From positions 1 through 64,000 of the forward strand of contig JAAXHJ010000054.1 in the NCBI GenBank assembly GCA_012270965.1: a stretch of 64,000 nucleotides of DNA. Direction: 5' to 3'. Source of the stretch: Candidatus Palauibacter poriticola. Its GTDB lineage: Bacteria; Gemmatimonadota; Gemmatimonadetes; Palauibacterales; Palauibacteraceae. A program made the translations under genes and the position numbers. Below are positions 29,098 through 39,512 of this stretch, piece after piece (the first letter of the stretch is position 1; every line of letters begins with the position of its first letter). The notes under the pieces are model-generated. The model searched no databases. It worked only from the letters and a program-made list of their open reading frames with translations, and was not told the origin of the DNA.

Positions 29098-30744
29098 CTA
29101 GGAGGACGCCGCCCGGTCTTGCCGCCGGGGTCGGTCGCGGAGCGCGGCGCGGTCGACCTTCCCCAGGTGCGTGCGGGGCAGCTCCGCCACGAGATGAACG
29201 GCGGCGGGCGTCTTGTAGGTGGGCAGCCGCGAAGCGACGAACTCCCTGAGTCCCTCCGCAAGCCCGCCGGCCCGCCCGGCGGCCCGCCCGGCGGACGGTT
29301 TCGTCGGGACGACCCAGGCGACCGGCTCCACGAGACCCTCGGGGGTCGGCACGCCGACGACGGCCGCCTCCGCCACGGCGGCGTGCCGCAGCAGACAGTC
29401 CTCCACTTCGCCGGGGGAAAGCCACTTCCCCCTGACCTTGAGCATGTCGTCGCCGCGGCCGCAGTAGCGGAACAAGCCGCGTTCGTCACGCACGATCATG
29501 TCGCCCGACACGTACCACTCGCCTCGGAAGGCGTCGGCCGTCGCCCGCGCCCGCTGCCAGTACCCCAGCGCCCGCGACCCTCCGCGGACCCAGAGCCAAC
29601 CCACTTCGCCATCCGGAAGCTCTCGGCCCTCGTCGTCGCAAACCCGCACCTCGAAACCCGAAACGGCCCGCCCCAGCGTTCCCGGATACACCTCGTCCGG
29701 GCGGTTGCTGAGAAAGATGTGCCACATCTCCGCCGTCCCCAGGCCGTCGAGAAGCGTCACCCCCCAGCGGTCGCGCCAGCGCCGGTGAAGTTCCGGCGGA
29801 AGCGCCTCTCCCGCCGAGGTCGCGAGACGAAGGCACGAGAGATCGCTCGCGGCGGCGTCCGGGTGCGCCACCATGAGCCGGATCATGGTGGGGACGTTGA
29901 CGAGCACGGTCGGGCGGAACCGTGCGATCCTCTCGAACAGGACGTCCGGAGTGCAGCGCTCGGGGAAGAGGGCGGCGGTCGCGCCGACCGAGAAGGGGAA
30001 GAAGAGATTGGATCCGGTGGCGTACCCGAAGAACAGCTTGGGGACGGAGAGCGTGATGTCGTCTTCCGTCAGGCCCAGCACCCGCTTGCCGTAACACTCG
30101 GTTGTGTTCGCGAACGAGGCGTGCGTTTGAACGACGCCCTTCGGGCGGCCGGTCGTCCCGCCGCTGAACAGCCAGAGCGCGGGGTCGTCCCGGTGGGTCG
30201 GCCAAGGTTTCAGCGTCGTCGGCTGGGCGCGCAGCCGCTCGACGAAGGCGGCGTCGTCCACGACGAGGGTCTCGCGCGGCGCGGAGGGTACCTCGCTCCA
30301 AGCGATCCCGGCTTCCCCAACCGTCTCGGCTGCCGGAGCCGCCGGCATCGCCTCGCGAAAGAAGGGCGCGCAGCCGGAATCCACGAGGAGGACGGCGCCG
30401 CGCGTGTAACGAAGGAAGTAGGAAATCTCGTCACGGCGGAGGTACGGGTTCAGCATGACGCCCACGGCGCCGATGCGCAGCGCGCCGAAGAGGGCGCCGA
30501 CGAAGTCCGGTCCGTCCGGGAGCGCGATGAGGACCCGCTCCTCCGGCCGCACGCCGGCGCCGCGCAGGAGGTGGCCGTAGCGGTTCGCCAGCGCTTCGAC
30601 TTCCGCGTAGCTCTTCTCGCCGCCGTCCGTGACGAGCGCGCGGCGGCCGCCCCGTCCCTCCCGAATGCGGTCGCCCAGGAAGTATTCGGCGATGTTGAAG
30701 CGCTCGGGCGGATCGAAGATCGGCTGCGGCGCGTCGTCTCGCAT
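29098..30744 (-). CDS. Benzoate/2-aminobenzoate-CoA ligase
   Basis: Adenylate-forming ligase of 548 aa that activates an aromatic acid with ATP and CoA. Motifs are LFSGGTTGRPKGVVQTHASF (P-loop), SVPKLFFGYATGSNLFFPF (characteristic of the benzoate-CoA ligase group), LDGLGTAEMWHIFLSNRP, WYVSGDMIVRDERGLFRYCG, and the catalytic Lys in HLGKVDRAAL. The divergent operon carries an anthranilate-type monooxygenase/reductase and kynureninase, so anthranilate is the most likely substrate; benzoate cannot be excluded from sequence. A 127-base divergent region with an inverted repeat separates it from the operon, suggesting shared control. Confidence 0.85.
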   Translation of the reverse strand: MRDDAPQPIFDPPERFNIAEYFLGDRIREGRGGRRALVTDGGEKSYAEVEALANRYGHLLRGAGVRPEERVLIALPDGPDFVGALFGALRIGAVGVMLNPYLRRDEISYFLRYTRGAVLLVDSGCAPFFREAMPAAPAAETVGEAGIAWSEVPSAPRETLVVDDAAFVERLRAQPTTLKPWPTHRDDPALWLFSGGTTGRPKGVVQTHASFANTTECYGKRVLGLTEDDITLSVPKLFFGYATGSNLFFPFSVGATAALFPERCTPDVLFERIARFRPTVLVNVPTMIRLMVAHPDAAASDLSCLRLATSAGEALPPELHRRWRDRWGVTLLDGLGTAEMWHIFLSNRPDEVYPGTLGRAVSGFEVRVCDDEGRELPDGEVGWLWVRGGSRALGYWQRARATADAFRGEWYVSGDMIVRDERGLFRYCGRGDDMLKVRGKWLSPGEVEDCLLRHAAVAEAAVVGVPTPEGLVEPVAWVVPTKPSAGRAAGRAGGLAEGLREFVASRLPTYKTPAAVHLVAELPRTHLGKVDRAALRDRPRRQDRAASS

Positions 30745-30871: not shown

Positions 30872-31660
30872 ATGACTCTGCACAGGCTTTCGGACCTCAC
30901 CTGGGAGGAGGTCGGGGCGCTCGACCTCGATCGAACGGTGGCGATCCTGCCGGTGGGAGCGACCGAGGCGCACGGCCCGCACCTGCCCCTCGACACCGAC
31001 GTCACCATCGCGGAGGCGATGGCGGAAGCCGGCGCGCGACGACTCTCGGCTCTGGGTGTGGAGATCGTGCTCCTCGACGGCCTCCGGTACACGCCTGCCG
31101 CCTTCTCCGCCAAGTTCCCCGGTACGATCGATATCGGGGCCGCGACGCTCACCGCCTTCCTCGCCGACATCGTCGCCAGCCTGCGCCGGACCGGGATCGC
31201 CACCCTGGCGATCGCGAACGCGCACTTCGACCCCGCCAACCTCGAGGCGCTTCACGCCGCGGCGGCGGTCGGCGGGCGTGGCTCCTTTCGCGTCGTGTTT
31301 CCGGATGTGACGCGCCGGCCGTGGGGAAGCCGGCTCACCGAGGAGTTCCGGAGCGGGGCCTGTCATGCCGGGCAGTACGAGGGTTCGATCCTCCTCGCCC
31401 GCGACCCCGGGCGCGTGCGCGAGGACATCATGCGCGAACTGGAGGACCATCCCGTCTCGCTCTCCGCCGCGATCCGGGCCGGGATGGGAGACTTCGCGGC
31501 GGCGGGAGGGACGCGCGCCTATTTCGGCTACCCCTCGCAGGCGACGGCGGAAGAGGGACGTGCTACGATTGAGACGCTCGGCGCCATCCTCGCGGAGGCG
31601 GTGATGGAAGCCCTGGGAGAAGCCTTGGGAGAAGCCATGGGAGAGGAGAAGCGATCGTGA
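30872..31660 (+). CDS. Creatininase-family amidohydrolase (candidate kynurenine formamidase)
   Basis: Metal-dependent amidohydrolase of 262 aa and first gene of the operon. It carries the family's N-terminal metal motif LPVGATEAHGPHLPLDTDV (Glu, His and Asp) and a later HAGQYEGSILLARDP in place of HAxxxETS. The usual NGHGGN is changed to NAHFDPANLE, so the active site is divergent. Family members hydrolyse creatinine or amide bonds. The operon has tryptophan dioxygenase and kynureninase but no classical formamidase, so hydrolysis of N-formylkynurenine is a reasonable hypothesis. An alternative is a C-N or ring hydrolysis step after anthraniloyl-CoA reduction. The C-terminus holds a 12-base tandem repeat (EALG-EALG-EAMG). 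Confidence 0.72.
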   Translation: MTLHRLSDLTWEEVGALDLDRTVAILPVGATEAHGPHLPLDTDVTIAEAMAEAGARRLSALGVEIVLLDGLRYTPAAFSAKFPGTIDIGAATLTAFLADIVASLRRTGIATLAIANAHFDPANLEALHAAAAVGGRGSFRVVFPDVTRRPWGSRLTEEFRSGACHAGQYEGSILLARDPGRVREDIMRELEDHPVSLSAAIRAGMGDFAAAGGTRAYFGYPSQATAEEGRATIETLGAILAEAVMEALGEALGEAMGEEKRS

Positions 31661-31685: not shown

Positions 31686-32465
31686 GTGAGTCTCGCCGGA
31701 CGTGGCGCTCTCGTCACGGGCGGGGGGCGCGGTATCGGGGCCGCGACGGCGCGGACGCTGTCGGGCCGCGGCGTCCGACTGGTCGTGGCCGCGCGGAGCA
31801 CGCCGCAGATCGAGGCCGTCGCGGCTGAGGTGCGGGACGGTGGCGGCGAGGCCTGGGCGGTGACGTGCGACGTGTCGGACCCGGCGAATGTGGAGGCCCT
31901 GTGCCGCGAGGCCGCAAGTCGGCTCGGCGCCGTGGACATCCTCGTGAACAATGCGGGCGTAGCCAGTTCCGCCGCCGTCGTGCGACTCGCGCCGGAGGAG
32001 TGGGAGCGGTTGTGGCGCATCAACGCGACCGGCCCGCTCCTCGCCATGCAGGGCGTGCTGCCCGGCATGCTGGAACGCGGCTGGGGGCGGATCGTGAACG
32101 TGGCCTCGGTCGCCGGGCTGCGTGGAGCGCGCTACATCGCCGCCTACGCCGCGTCGAAGCACGCCTTGCTCGGCCTCACGCGTTCCGCCGCGGCTGAAGT
32201 GGCCGGAGGCAGGGTCACGGTGAACGCGGTCTGTCCCGGCTATGTCGACACGCCGATGACGGACGCCACGATCGAGAACATCGTGAAGCGAACGGACATG
32301 GGGGAGCCGGGGGCCCTCGACGCGATTCTGGCGACGACGCCGCAGCGGCGGCTCATCGCCCCCGAGGAGGTCGCGGCATCCATCGCGTACCTGTGTGGCG
32401 ATGAGGCGCGGAGCATCAACGGCCAGACCGTCGTGCTGGACGGCGGCGCCACGGCGGCGCTTTAG
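31686..32465 (+). CDS. Short-chain dehydrogenase/reductase
   Basis: Classical SDR of 259 aa. The cofactor motif is TGGGRGIG near residue 11, followed by NNAGV near 90. The catalytic Ser is in VASVAG and the catalytic Tyr/Lys in YAASKHALLGL. It ends with the usual GQTVVLDGG. The start is GTG 31686, 25 bases after the creatininase gene. In the proposed pathway it would oxidise or reduce a hydroxy/keto group of the alicyclic CoA ester made by the monooxygenase/reductase, as a 3-hydroxyacyl-CoA dehydrogenase would. The substrate is inferred from context only. Confidence 0.85.
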   Translation: MSLAGRGALVTGGGRGIGAATARTLSGRGVRLVVAARSTPQIEAVAAEVRDGGGEAWAVTCDVSDPANVEALCREAASRLGAVDILVNNAGVASSAAVVRLAPEEWERLWRINATGPLLAMQGVLPGMLERGWGRIVNVASVAGLRGARYIAAYAASKHALLGLTRSAAAEVAGGRVTVNAVCPGYVDTPMTDATIENIVKRTDMGEPGALDAILATTPQRRLIAPEEVAASIAYLCGDEARSINGQTVVLDGGATAAL

Positions 32466-32466
32466 C

Positions 32467-33054
32467 ATGGCGTCGCCGAGATCCACGCGTCACGGCGAGC
32501 GCCGGGCCGCAGGCACCGCTCATGCGCGCGCCGTCGCCGCCGATGCCCGCACTGACGCCGATGCCCGCACTGACGCCGATGCCCGCACTGACGCCGCCGA
32601 TGCCCGCACTGACGCCGATGCGCCCGCTGACGGCGCTGCCCCCGCTGACGCCGACGCGTTCGAGGTGCTGAACCCGGCCGCGCTCGGCGTGCCGCGGGGC
32701 TGGAATCACGGACTCCTCGCTCCTCCCGGCGGGCGCGCGCTCTTCGTCGCCGGGCAGACCGCCGGCGGAGCGGACGGACACGTCCAGACTCCGGACTTCG
32801 CAGCGCAGTTCGCGCTCGCACTCGATCGCGTGCTGGCGGTCGTGCGGGCGGCGGGCGGGGAGCCCTCGCACATTGGACGGATGACGATCTACGTTACGGA
32901 TCTCGCCGTCTACCAGGAGGCTCGTTCCGAGCTGGGGGCGGCGTGGCGCGACCGGCTGGGCCGGCACTATCCCGCCATCGCGCTCGTCGAGGTCAGCGGG
33001 CTCGTCGACGCCGGCGCGCAGGTCGAGATCGAGGCGACCGCCATCCTGCCGTGA
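32467..33054 (+). CDS. RidA-family protein with repeat-rich N-terminal extension
   Basis: RidA/YjgF/L-PSP family protein of 195 aa. The last 125 residues are the domain: VPRGWNHGLLAPPGGRALF, VAGQTAGGADG, FAAQFALALDRVLAVVRAAG, DLAVYQEARSELG, and YPAIALVEVSGLVDAGAQVE with the conserved Glu. Many members hydrolyse reactive enamines or imines. The first 65 residues are an Ala/Asp-rich extension built from DARTDA repeats, absent from typical RidA proteins. Within the operon it could hydrolyse the enamine of the reduced 2-aminobenzoyl-CoA product. One base separates it from the SDR stop. Confidence 0.82.
   Translation: MASPRSTRHGERRAAGTAHARAVAADARTDADARTDADARTDAADARTDADAPADGAAPADADAFEVLNPAALGVPRGWNHGLLAPPGGRALFVAGQTAGGADGHVQTPDFAAQFALALDRVLAVVRAAGGEPSHIGRMTIYVTDLAVYQEARSELGAAWRDRLGRHYPAIALVEVSGLVDAGAQVEIEATAILP
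32542..32652 (+). repeat. 18-bp tandem repeat in the RidA gene
   Basis: Four identical 18-base units (GATGCCCGCACTGACGCC), with one 3-base insertion between the third and fourth, are followed by diverged units. They encode the DARTDA extension. Confidence 0.88.
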
Positions 33055-33085: not shown

Positions 33086-33886
33086 GTGCCGCTGAATCCG
33101 AGTTCATTCCTGTACGAGGTCGAAGCCGCGACCTCCGTCGCGACGATCACGCTGAACCGTCCCGAACGGCGCAATGCCCTCACCTTCGAGGTGTACGACG
33201 AACTCCGGAATACCTTCCGCGCGCTCGACCGGGAAGCGGGGGTCCGCGCGATCGTCATTACGGGGGCCGGCCCCGCCTTCTGCACGGGCGGGGATGTGCG
33301 CGACATCATCGGGCCGCTCCTCGAGATGGACGCCGCGGAGTTGTTGGACTTCACGCGGATGACGTGCGACCTGATCGCCGCCATGCGGGAGTGTGGCCGA
33401 CCCGTCGTCGGCGCCCTCAACGGCACCGTGGCGGGGGCCGGGGCCGTGATCGCGACGGCCTGCGATGTGCGGATCGCGGCGGAATCCGCCAAGATCGCCT
33501 ACCTGTTCACGCGGGTCGGGCTCTCCGGCGCCGACATGGGGATCGCTTGGCTCCTGCCGCGCATCATCGGTCTGGGGCGGGCGACGGAACTTCTGATGAC
33601 GGGTGATTTTCTCGACGCGCGCGAGGCCCTCCGTCTCGGACTATATCATCGGGTCGTGCCCGATGGAGAGGCTCTCGACACCGGGACGGAGTGGGCGGCG
33701 CGGCTGGCGGCGGGACCCTCCTCCGCCCTTTCCGTCACCAAGCACGCCCTGGAGAGGGAGGCTCACATGACGTTGCTCGACGCGCTCGACGAGGAGGCCC
33801 GCCTGCAGGCCGCCTGCATGGAGGACCCGAACTTCCGCGAGGGCTTCCGCGCCTTCGTCGAGAAGCGGGCCGCGGTGTTCTCGTGA
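33086..33886 (+). CDS. Enoyl-CoA hydratase/isomerase
   Basis: Crotonase-fold enzyme of 266 aa. It shows ITLNRPERRNALTFEVYDEL, the oxyanion-hole loops in GPAFCTGGDVRD and NGTVAGAGAVIATACDVRIA, and the active-site region SGADMGIAWLLPRIIGLGRA. The start is GTG 33086 preceded by GGAGGG. Its stop overlaps the next gene (GTGA). In the CoA-dependent anthranilate route a hydratase would act on the unsaturated alicyclic CoA ester before or during ring opening. The Glu positions of classical hydratases are changed in part (ADMG), so an isomerase or ring-hydrolase role is possible. Confidence 0.85.
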   Translation: MPLNPSSFLYEVEAATSVATITLNRPERRNALTFEVYDELRNTFRALDREAGVRAIVITGAGPAFCTGGDVRDIIGPLLEMDAAELLDFTRMTCDLIAAMRECGRPVVGALNGTVAGAGAVIATACDVRIAAESAKIAYLFTRVGLSGADMGIAWLLPRIIGLGRATELLMTGDFLDAREALRLGLYHRVVPDGEALDTGTEWAARLAAGPSSALSVTKHALEREAHMTLLDALDEEARLQAACMEDPNFREGFRAFVEKRAAVFS

Positions 33887-35043
33887 TCGACCTCCATCCC
33901 GTCCGCGCCTTTCTCGACGCGCAGCACCTCGAACTCGGGGAGAGGCTCGGGCGCTACGCGGCGTCGGAGTTCGCCGAACACGCGCATCGGGACGACGACG
34001 ACCTCGCCCGCCGCTACGCGCGGGAGATCTGCGCGTCCCTGGGGCGGGGCGGCTGGTTGAAGGCGATCGCCCGACAGGACTTCCGGGCCTGCTCCGTGAC
34101 GCGCGAGACGCTGGCCTTCTACTCGCCGCTCGCGGACGCGATGTTCGCTCTCCAGGCGTTGGGCTCGACCCCGATCGCGCTGGCCGGCGACGAGAGGCAA
34201 CGGCGGCTGTGGCTCGACCGCGCCATCCGCGGGCGGGCCGTGGCGGCTTTCGCGATGAGCGAGCCGGAGGCGGGGTCCGACGTGGCCGCCATGCGCACGA
34301 CCGCCGTCCGGGACGGGAACGATTACGTCCTCAACGGCGTGAAGACCTTCATCTCCAACGCGGGGATCGCGGACTTCTATCTCCTGTTTGCGGTCACCGA
34401 CCCGGGCGAGGGCGTGGCGGGGATCTCCGCCTTCCTCCTCCCCGCCGATACCAAGGGCTTCCGCTTCGTGCGGCCGCTTCTGATGGCCGACCCCCACCCG
34501 CTGGGGGAGATCGCGCTCGAGGACTGCCGGCTGCCGGCCGCGGCCCGCGTCGGAGACGAGGGCGAGGGGTACAAGCTCGGGCTCGCCACGCTCGACCGCC
34601 TGCGCCCCACCGTGGGGGCCGCCGCCTGCGGGATGGCGGGCCGCGCGCTGCACGAGGCGCTGCACCACGCCCTCTCGCGCCGGCAGTTCGGGCGGGCGCT
34701 GGCGGATTTTCAGATCACGCAGGAGAAGGTGGGGCGCATGGGGACCGACCTTACCGCCGCCCGGCTCCTCGTGTATCGAGCGGCCTGGGAGCGCGACGGC
34801 GGCGCGGATCGCACGGACCTCGAAGCCGCCATGGCAAAGTCCTTCGCGACCGAGATCGCGCAGTGCGTGGTGGACGACGCCGTGCAGGTTCTCGGCGGAC
34901 GCGGCGTGCTCGCGGACCACCCGGTCGACCGGCTCTACCGCTCCGTGAGGGCGCTCCGCATCTACGAGGGCGCCACCGAGATTCAGCGCCTCATCATCGC
35001 GCGTCATCTGTTCGACGCCGCGCGCGGCGAGAGCGACCCCTGA
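33883..35043 (+). CDS. Acyl-CoA dehydrogenase
   Basis: FAD-dependent acyl-CoA dehydrogenase of 386 aa. Family motifs are AFAMSEPEAGSDVAAMRTTA, YVLNGVKTFISNAGIADFYL, DRLRPTVGAAACGMAGRAL, RRQFGRALADFQITQEKVG and the C-terminal RALRIYEGATEIQRLIIAR. The first 90 residues fit the helical domain. The GTG start at 33883 overlaps the hydratase stop. It would introduce a double bond into a ring or dicarboxylyl-CoA intermediate of anthranilate breakdown, or act on glutaryl/pimelyl-type CoA after ring opening. The exact substrate is not determined. Confidence 0.87.
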   Translation: MIDLHPVRAFLDAQHLELGERLGRYAASEFAEHAHRDDDDLARRYAREICASLGRGGWLKAIARQDFRACSVTRETLAFYSPLADAMFALQALGSTPIALAGDERQRRLWLDRAIRGRAVAAFAMSEPEAGSDVAAMRTTAVRDGNDYVLNGVKTFISNAGIADFYLLFAVTDPGEGVAGISAFLLPADTKGFRFVRPLLMADPHPLGEIALEDCRLPAAARVGDEGEGYKLGLATLDRLRPTVGAAACGMAGRALHEALHHALSRRQFGRALADFQITQEKVGRMGTDLTAARLLVYRAAWERDGGADRTDLEAAMAKSFATEIAQCVVDDAVQVLGGRGVLADHPVDRLYRSVRALRIYEGATEIQRLIIARHLFDAARGESDP

Positions 35044-37460
35044 GGATCGTCTGCGTCGGAGGCGGGCCAGCCGGCCTGTACTTCGCGATCCTGATGAAGC
35101 GCTCGGATCCGGCGCACGATGTCATCGTCTTCGAACGCAACCGCCCCGGCGACACCTACGGCTTCGGCGTCGTGTTCTCCGACGCCACGCTGGAGGAACT
35201 CGCCGCCGCGGACCTCGAGAGTTACGAGGCGATCGCGCGGTCCTTCCACCACTGGGACGACATCGACATCCACTACCGGGGCCACCGGCTCACCTCGACC
35301 GGACACGGCTTCAGCGGCCTCGCCCGCACGGCCCTCCTCGAGATCCTGGAGTCGCGAGCGCGCGAACTCGGCGTCGATCTGCGGTGCGGCGTGGAAGTCG
35401 AGTCGGAGGAGGCGTACGCCGGCGCCGATCTCGTGCTCGCCGCCGATGGAGTGAACAGCCGCATGCGGGACCGGTACGCCGCCGCGTTCGGCCCCCGCGT
35501 CGATCTTCGTCCGAACCGGTTCGTGTGGCTCGGCACGACGAAGTCCTTCCCCGCCTTCACGTTCTATTTTCGGGAGACCGAACACGGGCTGTGGCGCGTG
35601 CACGCGTATCAGTACCGGCCCGGCGACGCCGGCGAGGAGGCCGTCTCCACCTTCATCGTCGAGGCGACCGAGGCGACGTGGGAAGCCGCCGGCATGGACG
35701 CCGCCTCCGAAGAGGAGACCGTCGCCTTCCTCGAGGACACCTTCCGCGAGGAACTGGATTCCCATCGGCTCGTCGCAAACCGCTCGATCTGGCGCGGCTT
35801 CCCGACCGTCCGGAACCGGTCGTGGCGCCACGGCCACATCGTGCTGGTCGGCGACGCCGCGCATTCGGCCCACTTCTCCATCGGATCGGGGACCCGGCTC
35901 GCGATGATCGACGCGATCTCGCTCCACGAGTCGCTTCTCGCCCATGATCTCGTCGTCGCTCCCGCTCTGGAGGCCTACGAGACGGCCCGCCGCCCCGAGG
36001 TCGAGAGCGTGCAGAGGGCCGCCCAAGCGAGTCTCGAATGGTTCGAGGGCACCGAGCGCTTCCTGGAGACGGAACCCCTGCAGTTCGCCTTCAACCTCAT
36101 CACGCGCAGCCTCCGCATCACCCACTCCAACCTCGCCCTGCGCGACCCGGAGTTCACCGCGCGCGTCGATCGCTGGTTCGCCGAGCGGGCCGCGGCGGAG
36201 GCGGCGGACGCGGCCGACCCCGCGGCGCGGGCGGAGGCGGCGGACGCGGCCGACCCGGTGGCGCGGGCGGAGGCGGCGGACGCGGCCGACCCGGTGGACG
36301 CGGCCGACCCGGCGGCGGGGGCGGGGGAGCGAACACCTCCGCGCGGGAGCGTGGGGCGCGGCCCGGCTCCGCCCCCGCTCCTCGCCCCGTTCCGGCTCCG
36401 CGGGCTTGAGTTGAGAAACCGGGTCGTCGTCTCGGCCATGTGCCAGTATTCGGCGGAGGACGGGACGCCGGACGACTGGCACCTCGTAAACCTCGGCAGC
36501 CGGGCGATCGGCGGAGCCGGACTCGTGATGTCGGAGATGACGGACGTGAGCCGGGAAGGCCGCATCTCCCTAGGCTGCGCGGGAATGTACGCTCCCGCCC
36601 ATGTGGGTGCGTGGAAGCGGATCGTCGATTTCGTGCATCGACACTCCGACGCGGCGATCGGCATGCAACTCGGCCACGCGGGCCGGAAGGCCTCCACGCG
36701 GCTGTCCTGGGAGGGCGACAACGAACCGCTTGCAGGGGATGGCTGGCCGGTGATGGCCGCCTCCCCCGTACCGTGGTTCGAACACAGCCCGGTTCCGCGC
36801 CAAATGACGCGGCGGGACATGGATCGGGTGACGGCGGAATTCCGCCGCGCGGCGGAGATGTCGGAGGAGGCCGGGTTCGACCTGCTGGAGATCCACTTCG
36901 CGCACGGCTACCTGCTGGCCGGTTTCATCTCTCCTCTCACGAACCTCCGCGAGGACGAGTATGGGGGAGACGTGGACGGACGGCTTCGTTTCCCGCTCGA
37001 GGTTCTCGGGACGGTACGATCCGCGTGGCCGCCGGAGAAGCCGATGTCCGTCCGCATCTCCGCGGTGGACTGGGCGGAGGGCGGGATGACGGCCGACGGC
37101 GCCGTCGAGGTCGCGCACCGCTTGAAGGAGGCGGGCGTGGACATCATCGATGTCTCGGCGGGGCAGACCGTCCCCTGGCAGGAGCCCGCCTACGGCCGGC
37201 AGTACCAGACCCCCTTCTCGGACCGCATCCGGCACGAAGTGGGGATCGCGACCATGGCCGTGGGCAACATCTCCTCCTTCATGGACGTGAACACGATCCT
37301 CGCGGCGGGGCGCGCGGACCTCTGCTGTCTCGCCCGCGCACACCTCTGGGACCCATACTGGACCCGGCACGCAGCCTACGCTTCGGGGGCACCGATCCCC
37401 TGGCCACCGCAGTATTCGTCGCTGGACGCCTACACGCCGAGATTCGAGTGGGGGTACTGA
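35040..37460 (+). CDS. Fused FAD monooxygenase/old yellow enzyme (2-aminobenzoyl-CoA monooxygenase/reductase type)
   Basis: Bifunctional flavoprotein of about 806 aa. Residues 1-380 form an aromatic-ring monooxygenase with GGGPAGLYFAILMK, LAADGVNSRMRDRY and HIVLVGDAAHSAHFS. Residues 440-800 form an old-yellow-enzyme reductase with LRNRVVVSAMCQYSAEDGTP, GMQLGHAGRKASTR and IHFAHGYLLAGFISPLTN. This fusion matches 2-aminobenzoyl-CoA monooxygenase/reductase, which hydroxylates and then reduces the ring of anthraniloyl-CoA. The linker is a 12-residue repeat (AEAADAADPVAR). No ATG, GTG or TTG precedes the FAD motif in frame, so the start is probably CTG at 35040, overlapping the previous stop (CTGA). 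Salicylyl-CoA 5-hydroxylases share the architecture, but the neighbours favour anthranilate. Confidence 0.83.
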   Translation: MRIVCVGGGPAGLYFAILMKRSDPAHDVIVFERNRPGDTYGFGVVFSDATLEELAAADLESYEAIARSFHHWDDIDIHYRGHRLTSTGHGFSGLARTALLEILESRARELGVDLRCGVEVESEEAYAGADLVLAADGVNSRMRDRYAAAFGPRVDLRPNRFVWLGTTKSFPAFTFYFRETEHGLWRVHAYQYRPGDAGEEAVSTFIVEATEATWEAAGMDAASEEETVAFLEDTFREELDSHRLVANRSIWRGFPTVRNRSWRHGHIVLVGDAAHSAHFSIGSGTRLAMIDAISLHESLLAHDLVVAPALEAYETARRPEVESVQRAAQASLEWFEGTERFLETEPLQFAFNLITRSLRITHSNLALRDPEFTARVDRWFAERAAAEAADAADPAARAEAADAADPVARAEAADAADPVDAADPAAGAGERTPPRGSVGRGPAPPPLLAPFRLRGLELRNRVVVSAMCQYSAEDGTPDDWHLVNLGSRAIGGAGLVMSEMTDVSREGRISLGCAGMYAPAHVGAWKRIVDFVHRHSDAAIGMQLGHAGRKASTRLSWEGDNEPLAGDGWPVMAASPVPWFEHSPVPRQMTRRDMDRVTAEFRRAAEMSEEAGFDLLEIHFAHGYLLAGFISPLTNLREDEYGGDVDGRLRFPLEVLGTVRSAWPPEKPMSVRISAVDWAEGGMTADGAVEVAHRLKEAGVDIIDVSAGQTVPWQEPAYGRQYQTPFSDRIRHEVGIATMAVGNISSFMDVNTILAAGRADLCCLARAHLWDPYWTRHAAYASGAPIPWPPQYSSLDAYTPRFEWGY
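36195..36318 (+). repeat. 36-bp tandem repeat in the interdomain linker
   Basis: Three 36-base units, the third diverged at its end, encode AEAADAADPVAR between the monooxygenase and reductase domains. Confidence 0.85.
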
Positions 37461-37500: not shown

Positions 37501-38304
37501 ATGGCGCAGAAAAAATACCTGACCTATTCCGGATACCTGCACTTGGACGAGTTGCTGTCGCTCCAAGTGGAGCAGTCGGGCGTGGACGGGGACCGCGAAC
37601 ACGATGAGATGCTGTTCATCATCATCCATCAGGTGTACGAGCTGTGGTTCAAGCAGCTCCTGCACGAACTCGAGTTCGCACGCGACCGGATGGGTGCGGA
37701 CGACATGCCGCGGCTCCTTCATACGATGGAACGCATCCTCACGATCCTGAAGGTCCAAGTCGCCCAACTGGACATCCTGGAGACGATGCGTCCGCTGGAG
37801 TTCCTCGCCTTCCGGCAACGGCTGGAGGAGGCGAGCGGCCTGCAGTCGTACCAGTTCCGCGAACTTGAATTCATTCTCGGCCACAAGCGGAGGGACGTAT
37901 TCGACCGCTACCCGGATGGAAGCGACGCGCGCCGGCGACTCGAAGCCCGCTACGGGGAGCCGTCGCTGTGGGCCGCCTTCCTTTGCTTCCTCCGCGCGCG
38001 CGGGTACGCGATCCCGGCGGCGGACATGGAGCGAGACGTCACGGCGCCGACCGAGCCATCGGCGGGCGTGCGGGCCGCCCTCACCCGGCTCTACCGGGAA
38101 GATCCGCGACTCGTCCAACTGTGCGAGCGGTTTGTGGATCTCGACGAGGGACTCCAGGAGTGGCGCTACCGGCATGTGAAGATGGTGGAGCGCACGATCG
38201 GGGCGCGGCCCGGGACCGGCCGGACCTCCGGCACCGCCTATCTCCGGAAGTCGCTGAACCGCCCCGTGTTTCCCGACCTGTGGGCGATCCGCACGGACCT
38301 GTGA
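37501..38304 (+). CDS. kynA: Tryptophan 2,3-dioxygenase
   Basis: Heme enzyme of 267 aa that opens the indole ring of L-tryptophan to N-formylkynurenine. The family sequence is clear throughout: YSGYLHLDELLSLQ, HDEMLFIIIHQVYELWFKQL, MRPLEFLAFRQRLEEASGLQ, SYQFRELEFILGHK, the heme-ligand His in WRYRHVKMVERTIG, and GTGRTSGTAYLRKSL. The length is normal for bacterial enzymes. ATG 37501 is preceded by GGAGGGGGATTC. The stop overlaps the kynureninase start (GTGA). Its place at the end of the operon links tryptophan to the anthranilate-CoA genes. Confidence 0.96.
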   Translation: MAQKKYLTYSGYLHLDELLSLQVEQSGVDGDREHDEMLFIIIHQVYELWFKQLLHELEFARDRMGADDMPRLLHTMERILTILKVQVAQLDILETMRPLEFLAFRQRLEEASGLQSYQFRELEFILGHKRRDVFDRYPDGSDARRRLEARYGEPSLWAAFLCFLRARGYAIPAADMERDVTAPTEPSAGVRAALTRLYREDPRLVQLCERFVDLDEGLQEWRYRHVKMVERTIGARPGTGRTSGTAYLRKSLNRPVFPDLWAIRTDL

Positions 38305-39512
38305 CGGGCATCGCGGCGGAGGATCTGTACCGGGAGCCGAACGCGCTCGCCCCGCACTATGCCCGCTTCCGGGTCGCGGAGCGGCTGCTCCTCACGGGAC
38401 ATTCGCACCAGGCGTGGCCCGACTGCGGTTTCGAGGGACAGCTCCGGGCGTGGGAGGACGCGGCCCGTCTGGTGGACGGGAAGTGGGAGGAGGCGTTCGC
38501 CCGCGGGAACCGGGTCCGCGCCGGATATGCCGAACTCCTCGGACGCCCGGAGCGCCCGGACGAGGGGGACTACGCGCTCGGTTCGAACACGCACGAACTC
38601 GTGGTCCGCTTTCTCTCCGCCCTGCCCCTGCGCGCGCGACGGCGGCTCGTGACGACGGCGGGAGAGTTCCACTCCATCCGGCGCCAGCTCGACCGCTTGG
38701 AGGAGGAGGGACTGACCATCGACCGCGTGCCCGTGGACCCGATCGACTCGCTCTCCGAACGGCTCCGTCTCGCGACGGACGACGAGACGGCGGGCGTCCT
38801 GGTCTCCGCCGTCCTCTACCGCGACGCCCGTATCGTCGGCGGGCTCGACGGCGTTGCGGAACGCTGCGAACGGGTGGGGGCGCACCTCCTCGTGGACGCG
38901 TATCACGCGCTGAACGCGATCCCCTTCGATCTCTCCAGCTTGGGGCTCGACGGCGCGTTCGTCGTGGGGGGCGGGTACAAGTACTGCCAGCTCGGCGAGG
39001 GGAACTGCTTCCTGCGGGTACCTCCGAACTGTCGACTGCGACCCGCCGTCACGGGGTGGTTCGCGGAGTTCTCGGCGCTGCACGGGGGGGAGGACGCCCG
39101 GCGCGTGAGGTACGGACCGGGGGCCGAGCGGTTCGCGGGCAGCACCTACGATCCGACGAGCCACTACCGGGCGGCCGAGGTGTTCGACTTCTTCCGGGAG
39201 CGGGGACTTGTTCCGGAGTTGCTGCGCGCGGTGAGCCGGCACCAGGTGGACCGTCTCGCGCGAGGGTTCGACGGGCTCGACGCGGACCCCGGGCTCATGG
39301 ACCGCGACCGGGAGACGCCGCCCGAGGCGGTGGGCGCCTTTCTCGCGCTGCGGACGCCGCGGGCGCACGACTTCCACGAGGCGCTCGCGGCCCGAGGCGT
39401 GGCGACGGACTACCGCGACGACCTGCTGCGGCTGGGCCCGGCCCCCTATCTCAGCGACCGGCAACTGGACGACGCCGTGGCCGCCCTCGGAGAGGTGGCG
39501 GCCAGCTTGTAG
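38301..39512 (+). CDS. kynU: Kynureninase-like PLP enzyme
   Basis: Fold-type I PLP enzyme (aminotransferase class V group) of 403 aa, expected to split kynurenine into anthranilate and alanine. It contains LTGHSHQAWPDC, ALGSNTHELVVRFL, FHSIRRQLDRLEEEGL, the PLP Asp in LLVDAYHALNAIPFDL and the Schiff-base Lys in VGGGYKYCQLGEGN. SHYRAAEVFDFF and DYRDDLLRLGPAPYLSD lie near the end. The identification rests on overall pattern and on direct coupling to tryptophan dioxygenase (GTG 38301 overlaps its TGA). It ends 13 bases before the convergent mobA gene. Confidence 0.87.
   Translation: MTGIAAEDLYREPNALAPHYARFRVAERLLLTGHSHQAWPDCGFEGQLRAWEDAARLVDGKWEEAFARGNRVRAGYAELLGRPERPDEGDYALGSNTHELVVRFLSALPLRARRRLVTTAGEFHSIRRQLDRLEEEGLTIDRVPVDPIDSLSERLRLATDDETAGVLVSAVLYRDARIVGGLDGVAERCERVGAHLLVDAYHALNAIPFDLSSLGLDGAFVVGGGYKYCQLGEGNCFLRVPPNCRLRPAVTGWFAEFSALHGGEDARRVRYGPGAERFAGSTYDPTSHYRAAEVFDFFRERGLVPELLRAVSRHQVDRLARGFDGLDADPGLMDRDRETPPEAVGAFLALRTPRAHDFHEALAARGVATDYRDDLLRLGPAPYLSDRQLDDAVAALGEVAASL

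Follow-up and report, generated by a model that had tools for sequence, protein, structure and literature searches.

A creatininase-family protein as candidate N-formylkynurenine formamidase in a tryptophan degradation operon of Candidatus Palauibacter poriticola

The creatininase-family protein described here, from the marine gemmatimonadote Candidatus Palauibacter poriticola, is probably the formamidase of tryptophan breakdown, with N-formylkynurenine (or N-formylanthranilate) as its predicted substrate. This is the best-supported function because the genes of its subfamily occur together with tryptophan 2,3-dioxygenase (TDO) and alternate with KynB, because the lower pathway does without them, and because a relative of animal kynurenine formamidase occupies the same slot in Ensifer. 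The function had been proposed in the initial annotation, made from the sequence alone, and is supported by the genomic comparisons given below. The protein would hydrolyze the aryl-formamide made by TDO and would thus be a candidate non-orthologous replacement of both KynB and the alpha/beta-hydrolase arylformamidase. It is rather likely that it represents a third, structurally unrelated family of bacterial kynurenine formamidases, of creatininase fold, which completes an all-in-one operon from tryptophan to anthraniloyl-CoA. Its members would be found in Gemmatimonadota, Acidobacteriota, Myxococcota, Eremiobacterota, Planctomycetota and Proteobacteria as well as in some Actinomycetes.

The operon lies in a stretch of 64,000 nucleotides (the window). 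Its features are listed in Table 1.

Table 1. Features of the operon in the window
Feature	Position	Strand	Remarks
Benzoate-CoA ligase family protein, likely 2-aminobenzoate-CoA ligase	29098..30744	-	TIGR02262 479 bits, over cut-off
Creatininase-family protein, candidate N-formylkynurenine formamidase	30872..31660	+	ATG start, 262 aa; subfamily signature GACHAGQYE
Short-chain dehydrogenase (SDR) of 2-aminobenzoyl-CoA cluster	31686..32465	+	PF00106 204 bits; recurs in ACMR clusters
RidA-family protein	32449..33054	+	PF01042 59 bits; domain ~32731-33045; start codon uncertain
Enoyl-CoA hydratase (ECH) family protein	33086..33886	+	NF006107 356 bits, over cut-off
Acyl-CoA dehydrogenase (ACAD) family protein	33883..35043	+	PF00441 156 bits
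Fused FAD monooxygenase/old-yellow-enzyme reductase, ACMR type (2-aminobenzoyl-CoA monooxygenase/reductase)	35025..37460	+	NF006101 1084 bits, over cut-off
Tryptophan 2,3-dioxygenase (TDO)	37501..38304	+	PF03301 211 bits; PDB 2nox E 5e-55
Divergent kynureninase	38301..39512	+	PF22580 KYNU_C over cut-off; best PDB match 1qz9 E 4e-11

On the plus strand the genes run in the order creatininase, SDR, RidA, ECH, ACAD, ACMR, TDO and kynureninase. The CoA ligase gene is divergent from the creatininase gene, with an intergenic region of 127 bp. The ligase is 33% identical to the anthranilate-CoA ligase of Arthrobacter Rue61a pAL1, an experimentally tested enzyme (PMC3534580), and the ACMR protein is 50% identical over 811 columns to its homologue from the same strain. 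The RidA-family protein may act as an enamine/imine hydrolase in the lower pathway. Short in-frame tandem repeats were seen at three places: the C-terminus of the creatininase (31607-31644), the N-terminal extension of the RidA-family protein (32535-32654) and the linker that joins the two domains of ACMR (36191-36315). The PDB matches of the TDO and the kynureninase bear out the earlier assignment of both genes, and the region 37501-39512 holds no KynB or arylformamidase between them, as had been stated. PDB 1qz9, the best match of the kynureninase, is a Pseudomonas kynureninase, and no match to the NCBIfam model TIGR01814 was obtained at E<=0.01. Kynureninases of the window type are missed by this model, and counts based on it were therefore left out of the analysis. 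By its sequence, the protein appears to belong to a second kynureninase subfamily that accompanies the operon.

When the creatininase, TDO and kynureninase genes are set aside, the rest of the operon is similar to the aerobic 2-aminobenzoyl-CoA (anthraniloyl-CoA) pathway known from Azoarcus evansii and Arthrobacter Rue61a (PMC4539516, PMC3534580). From its gene content the operon therefore reads as a route from tryptophan via N-formylkynurenine, kynurenine and anthranilate to anthraniloyl-CoA, followed by ring reduction and beta-oxidation. Within this route, which is presumably expressed, the formamidase step has no assigned enzyme. The source genome (3.56 Mb, 94% complete) was searched as a whole, and no bona fide kynB was found, the best TIGR03035 score being 67 bits against a cut-off of 223. 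Three distant cyclase-family proteins are present and may serve as KynB substitutes. A two-sequence profile of alpha/beta hydrolases related to animal kynurenine formamidase gave no arylformamidase-like match in the genome at E<=1e-15. This gap beside a TDO and a kynureninase counts in favor of the formamidase function.

The gene at 30872-31660 had been described as a divergent creatininase at the head of the operon. The open reading frame is real: the protein matches PF02633 (Creatininase) with 170 bits (E 5.6e-50; gathering cut-off 31.3), its AlphaFold model has a mean pLDDT of 94, and the top Foldseek matches of the model are solved Pseudomonas creatininases (E 7e-16). Its profile matches are to creatininase models only, with no match to the cyclase family of KynB (TIGR03035). 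Three named identities were rejected: the mycofactocin peptidase MftE (TIGR03964, 106.5 bits vs a cut-off of 172; NGHGGN absent, the motif being NAHFDPAN), creatininase EC 3.5.2.10 (TIGR04448, 87.8 vs 235) and the riboflavin formamidase ArfB (NF033501, 15.7 vs 180). The score with the IolN model was also far under its cut-off.

The protein retains each of the five metal-ligand positions of solved creatininase. The ligands of the binuclear site of the latter, E34, H36, D45, H120 and E122, have their equivalents in E32, H34, D43, H118 and D120, with H118 on His120 and Asp120 in place of Glu122 in the HMMER alignment. The first metal motif, TEAHGPHLPLDTD, is present, as had been noted. The reported replacement of NGHGGN by NAHFDPAN is correct for residues 116-123; the second metal motif is not thereby lost, since the ligands H118 and D120 stay. 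Across 27 diverse members of the subfamily E32, H34, D43 and H118 do not vary, N116, P121 and the GACHAGQ-E block (162-170) vary little or not at all, and position 120 is D or E. Loss of the second metal site was thus ruled out by the retained ligand set. As the ligand positions are conserved, with D or E at position 120, NAHFDPAN is no ruined NGHGGN and has more in common with the HYE found in true creatininase. H165 and E170 (in CHAGQYE) correspond to creatininase H178 and E183; the roles assigned to them are predicted. The retained metal-ligand positions count for the formamidase function. Creatininase Trp154 and Trp174 are not conserved and align with Pro144 and Gly162/Ser161 (read from the HMMER alignment), which makes creatinine an unlikely substrate.

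It is very improbable that the protein is a standard creatininase, an MftE or a riboflavin formamidase of the ArfB/BrbF type that lies in the operon by chance. The Pfam family and the fold are the same, and BrbF is an example of a formamidase within the creatininase family (PMC9478397), but the equivalog scores given above are well under their cut-offs, the two creatinine-binding tryptophans are not conserved, and the operon is conserved across phyla.

A single scan for relatives of the protein covered 84,980 species genomes and gave 73, which are 38-90% identical to it. They come from Gemmatimonadota, Acidobacteriota, Eremiobacterota, Planctomycetota and Alphaproteobacteria, from Myxococcota and other deltaproteobacteria, and from three actinomycetes in culture. 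Judged by these matches, the protein defines a subfamily of at least six phyla. The CoA ligase is the most frequent neighbor, followed by SDR, RidA, ECH, ACAD and ACMR. The subfamily gene usually adjoins the CoA ligase rather than TDO, and a TDO and/or kynureninase gene lies within 10 kb of it in about 22 of the 73 relatives. In Eremiobacterota the neighbors, read by eye, look unrelated to tryptophan breakdown. A search of plasmids gave no subfamily member, the best matches having at most 37% identity. In Candidatus Palauibacter rhopaloidicola (L010:10001-11539) the creatininase and the SDR form a single in-frame open reading frame of 513 aa; no weight is placed on this fusion because it was seen once in 26 loci with adjacent creatininase and SDR genes.

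Whole-genome searches of 50 of the subfamily genomes found TDO (PF03301, over cut-off) in all 50, as compared with 2 of 14 in a control set. ACMR-type matches at E<=1e-60 were found in 45 of the 50. KynB over the TIGR03035 cut-off was found in none, and a relative scoring 134-185 bits in four. The co-occurrence with TDO lacking KynB that follows from the initial annotation is thus observed. Three genomes of the source genus (G093, G119, G136) lack TDO, ACMR and creatininase altogether, as if the three had been gained or lost as a unit.

The replacement of KynB was followed within one phylum, in 150 Gemmatimonadota genomes at least 90% complete. KynB-like here means E<=1e-30, with every such protein under the curated cut-off, and ACMR was counted with its monooxygenase half. 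The subfamily was present in 39 genomes, TDO in 90, KynB-like genes in 56 and ACMR in 72. The TDO-bearing genomes divide into 33 with the creatininase only, 31 with a KynB-like gene only, four with both and 22 with neither (Fisher p=3e-6). For genomes with both TDO and ACMR the respective numbers are 31, 20, 4 and 7 (Fisher p=7e-7), and for TDO-bearing genera 16, 18, 4 and 11 (p=0.008); these p-values treat genomes or genera as independent, which phylogenetically they are only in part. The subfamily and KynB-like genes accordingly tend to replace each other among TDO-bearing members of the phylum.

KynB lies next to TDO in 20 genomes, and only one of these, G118, has a subfamily member. G118 is the only clear genome with both a TDO-adjacent KynB and a subfamily creatininase; the latter is divergent (38% identity) and lies beside ACMR and a CoA ligase (L100, L101). 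Four further creatininase genomes of the phylum carry an unlinked KynB-like gene. In some TDO-bearing genomes no formamidase of any of the three types lies near TDO, and in four of them (G110, G092, G187, G117; L109, L112, L113, L114) no KynB-like gene, arylformamidase relative or subfamily creatininase was found. A missing formamidase alone therefore proves little.

G118 is one counterpoint to the formamidase function, and the four genomes with an unlinked KynB-like gene and the distant cyclases of the source genome are others. A further one is that the association of the gene with ACMR is almost as close as that with TDO, each being present in 37 of the 39 subfamily-bearing Gemmatimonadota. 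The arrangement in G118 and the association with ACMR fit an unlikely second explanation, which had been named in the initial annotation as hydrolysis of a cyclic intermediate further down. The protein would then be a hydrolase of the lower pathway, acting on 2-amino-5-oxocyclohex-1-ene-carboxyl-CoA or its product by hydrolytic deamination or C-C ring opening, like the creatininase-family IolN on a cyclic diketone, and its co-occurrence with TDO would reflect no more than the origin of anthranilate from tryptophan in these organisms. The nearly constant position beside the CoA ligase, usually within a cluster of ACMR, SDR, RidA, ECH and ACAD, is also in its favor, as is the single fusion with the SDR. 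It gives, however, no reason for the alternation with KynB, and complete lower-pathway clusters exist without the gene. A complete cluster of ACMR, SDR, ECH, ACAD, CoA ligase and RidA without creatininase is found in G067, which has no TDO, and in G115, G181, G154 and G134, which have TDO and a KynB-like gene; G054 and G193 have partial sets without it. Clusters of this kind on plasmids of Azospirillum thermophilum, Phyllobacterium T1293 and Paroceanicella have neither creatininase nor TDO in the plasmid stretch read, and that of Sagittula stellata includes TDO and kynureninase, again with no creatininase. The plasmid cluster of the anthranilate-degrading Arthrobacter Rue61a likewise has none (PMC3534580). 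Because both Gemmatimonadota and plasmids hold such clusters, the lower pathway apparently does without the creatininase gene. Moreover, in Gemmatimonadota with ACMR and no TDO the gene is absent, save in two genomes with a contig end inside the cluster; in G158 and G184, which have the subfamily gene and no TDO, contigs end inside the ACMR gene. A hydrolase acting downstream is thus disfavored relative to the formamidase.

The slot of the creatininase gene is filled differently elsewhere. Ensifer PDNC004 has a relative of the solved animal kynurenine formamidase 4e11 (E 1e-15), an alpha/beta hydrolase, divergent from a CoA ligase-TDO pair, which is the position of the creatininase. A similar hydrolase adjoins TDO in Ruegeria, and in the gemmatimonadote G156, which has no creatininase, an arylformamidase-like gene lies directly upstream of TDO. 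Together with the KynB-like genes and the creatininase, three unrelated enzyme families thus appear to occupy the same slot. This occupancy in Ensifer, and the alternation with KynB in genomes with TDO and ACMR, point to the main formamidase step. They argue against a further and rather improbable explanation, in which the protein acts on another amide of the pathway (N-acyl-anthranilate, anthranilamide-type side products) or repairs cyclized kynurenine products, and N-formylkynurenine breaks down spontaneously or through a promiscuous hydrolase. In its favor are the distant cyclases of the source genome and the TDO-bearing Gemmatimonadota with no recognizable formamidase near TDO, in which another route may exist.

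As a formamidase, the protein would be a binuclear-metal amidohydrolase converting N-formylkynurenine and water to kynurenine and formate. A metal-bridged hydroxide would attack the formyl carbon, and D120 and H165 would help to protonate the aniline nitrogen as it leaves, after which formate and kynurenine would depart. Kynureninase would then yield anthranilate, which enzymes of the same operon would activate to the CoA thioester and degrade via the 2-aminobenzoyl-CoA route. Equally consistent would be a variant in which kynureninase acts first and N-formylanthranilate is then hydrolyzed to anthranilate and formate. A chemical precedent within the family is BrbF, which deformylates an N-formylamino pyrimidine in riboflavin synthesis (PMC9478397). 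In the literature collection searched, no paper links creatininase with kynurenine formamidase, and no relevant one links creatininase with anthranilate and CoA ligase. If the function is correct, the pathway would be complete in many Gemmatimonadota, Acidobacteriota and Myxococcota that are now read as lacking a kynurenine formamidase, and a function would be gained for a large set of proteins that bear the annotation 'creatininase family'. To the riboflavin enzymes of this family a second type of aryl-formamidase would be added. Since three cultured actinomycetes carry the gene, genetics is possible; orthologues are present in the cultured Amycolatopsis coloradensis DSM 44225 (L066) and in Actinophytocola (L065).

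Among known systems, the 2-aminobenzoyl-CoA clusters of Azoarcus evansii (likened by description only) and Arthrobacter Rue61a share the CoA ligase, the fused monooxygenase/reductase and RidA with the operon, and most clusters read also have the SDR, enoyl-CoA hydratase and acyl-CoA dehydrogenase; the plasmid clusters differ in having no subfamily creatininase. Creatininase (PDB 1J2T / 3A6x) agrees in fold, binuclear ligand positions and the H178/E183 equivalents, but identity is about 25%, HYEN stands where HFDP is found here, the score is under the family cut-off, and the two tryptophans mutated in the 3A6x entries are not conserved. MftE, of mycofactocin biosynthesis, is in the same Pfam family and has the nearest NCBIfam model (107 bits, below the cut-off); the protein differs in lacking NGHGGN and in an operon with no mycofactocin gene. 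BrbF and ArfB also belong to the creatininase family and hydrolyze a ring-bound N-formylamino group of an aromatic substrate (PMC9478397), whereas the present gene lies in a tryptophan operon and has 16 of the 180 bits required by the ArfB model; BrbF was compared by description. KynB (TIGR03035) shares the proposed reaction and the partnership with TDO and kynureninase, but is of an unrelated family and alternates with the creatininase across Gemmatimonadota. The arylformamidase/animal kynurenine formamidase (PDB 4E11) has an unrelated serine-hydrolase fold (alpha/beta hydrolase); it shares the proposed reaction, and its relative lies in the same slot in Ensifer.
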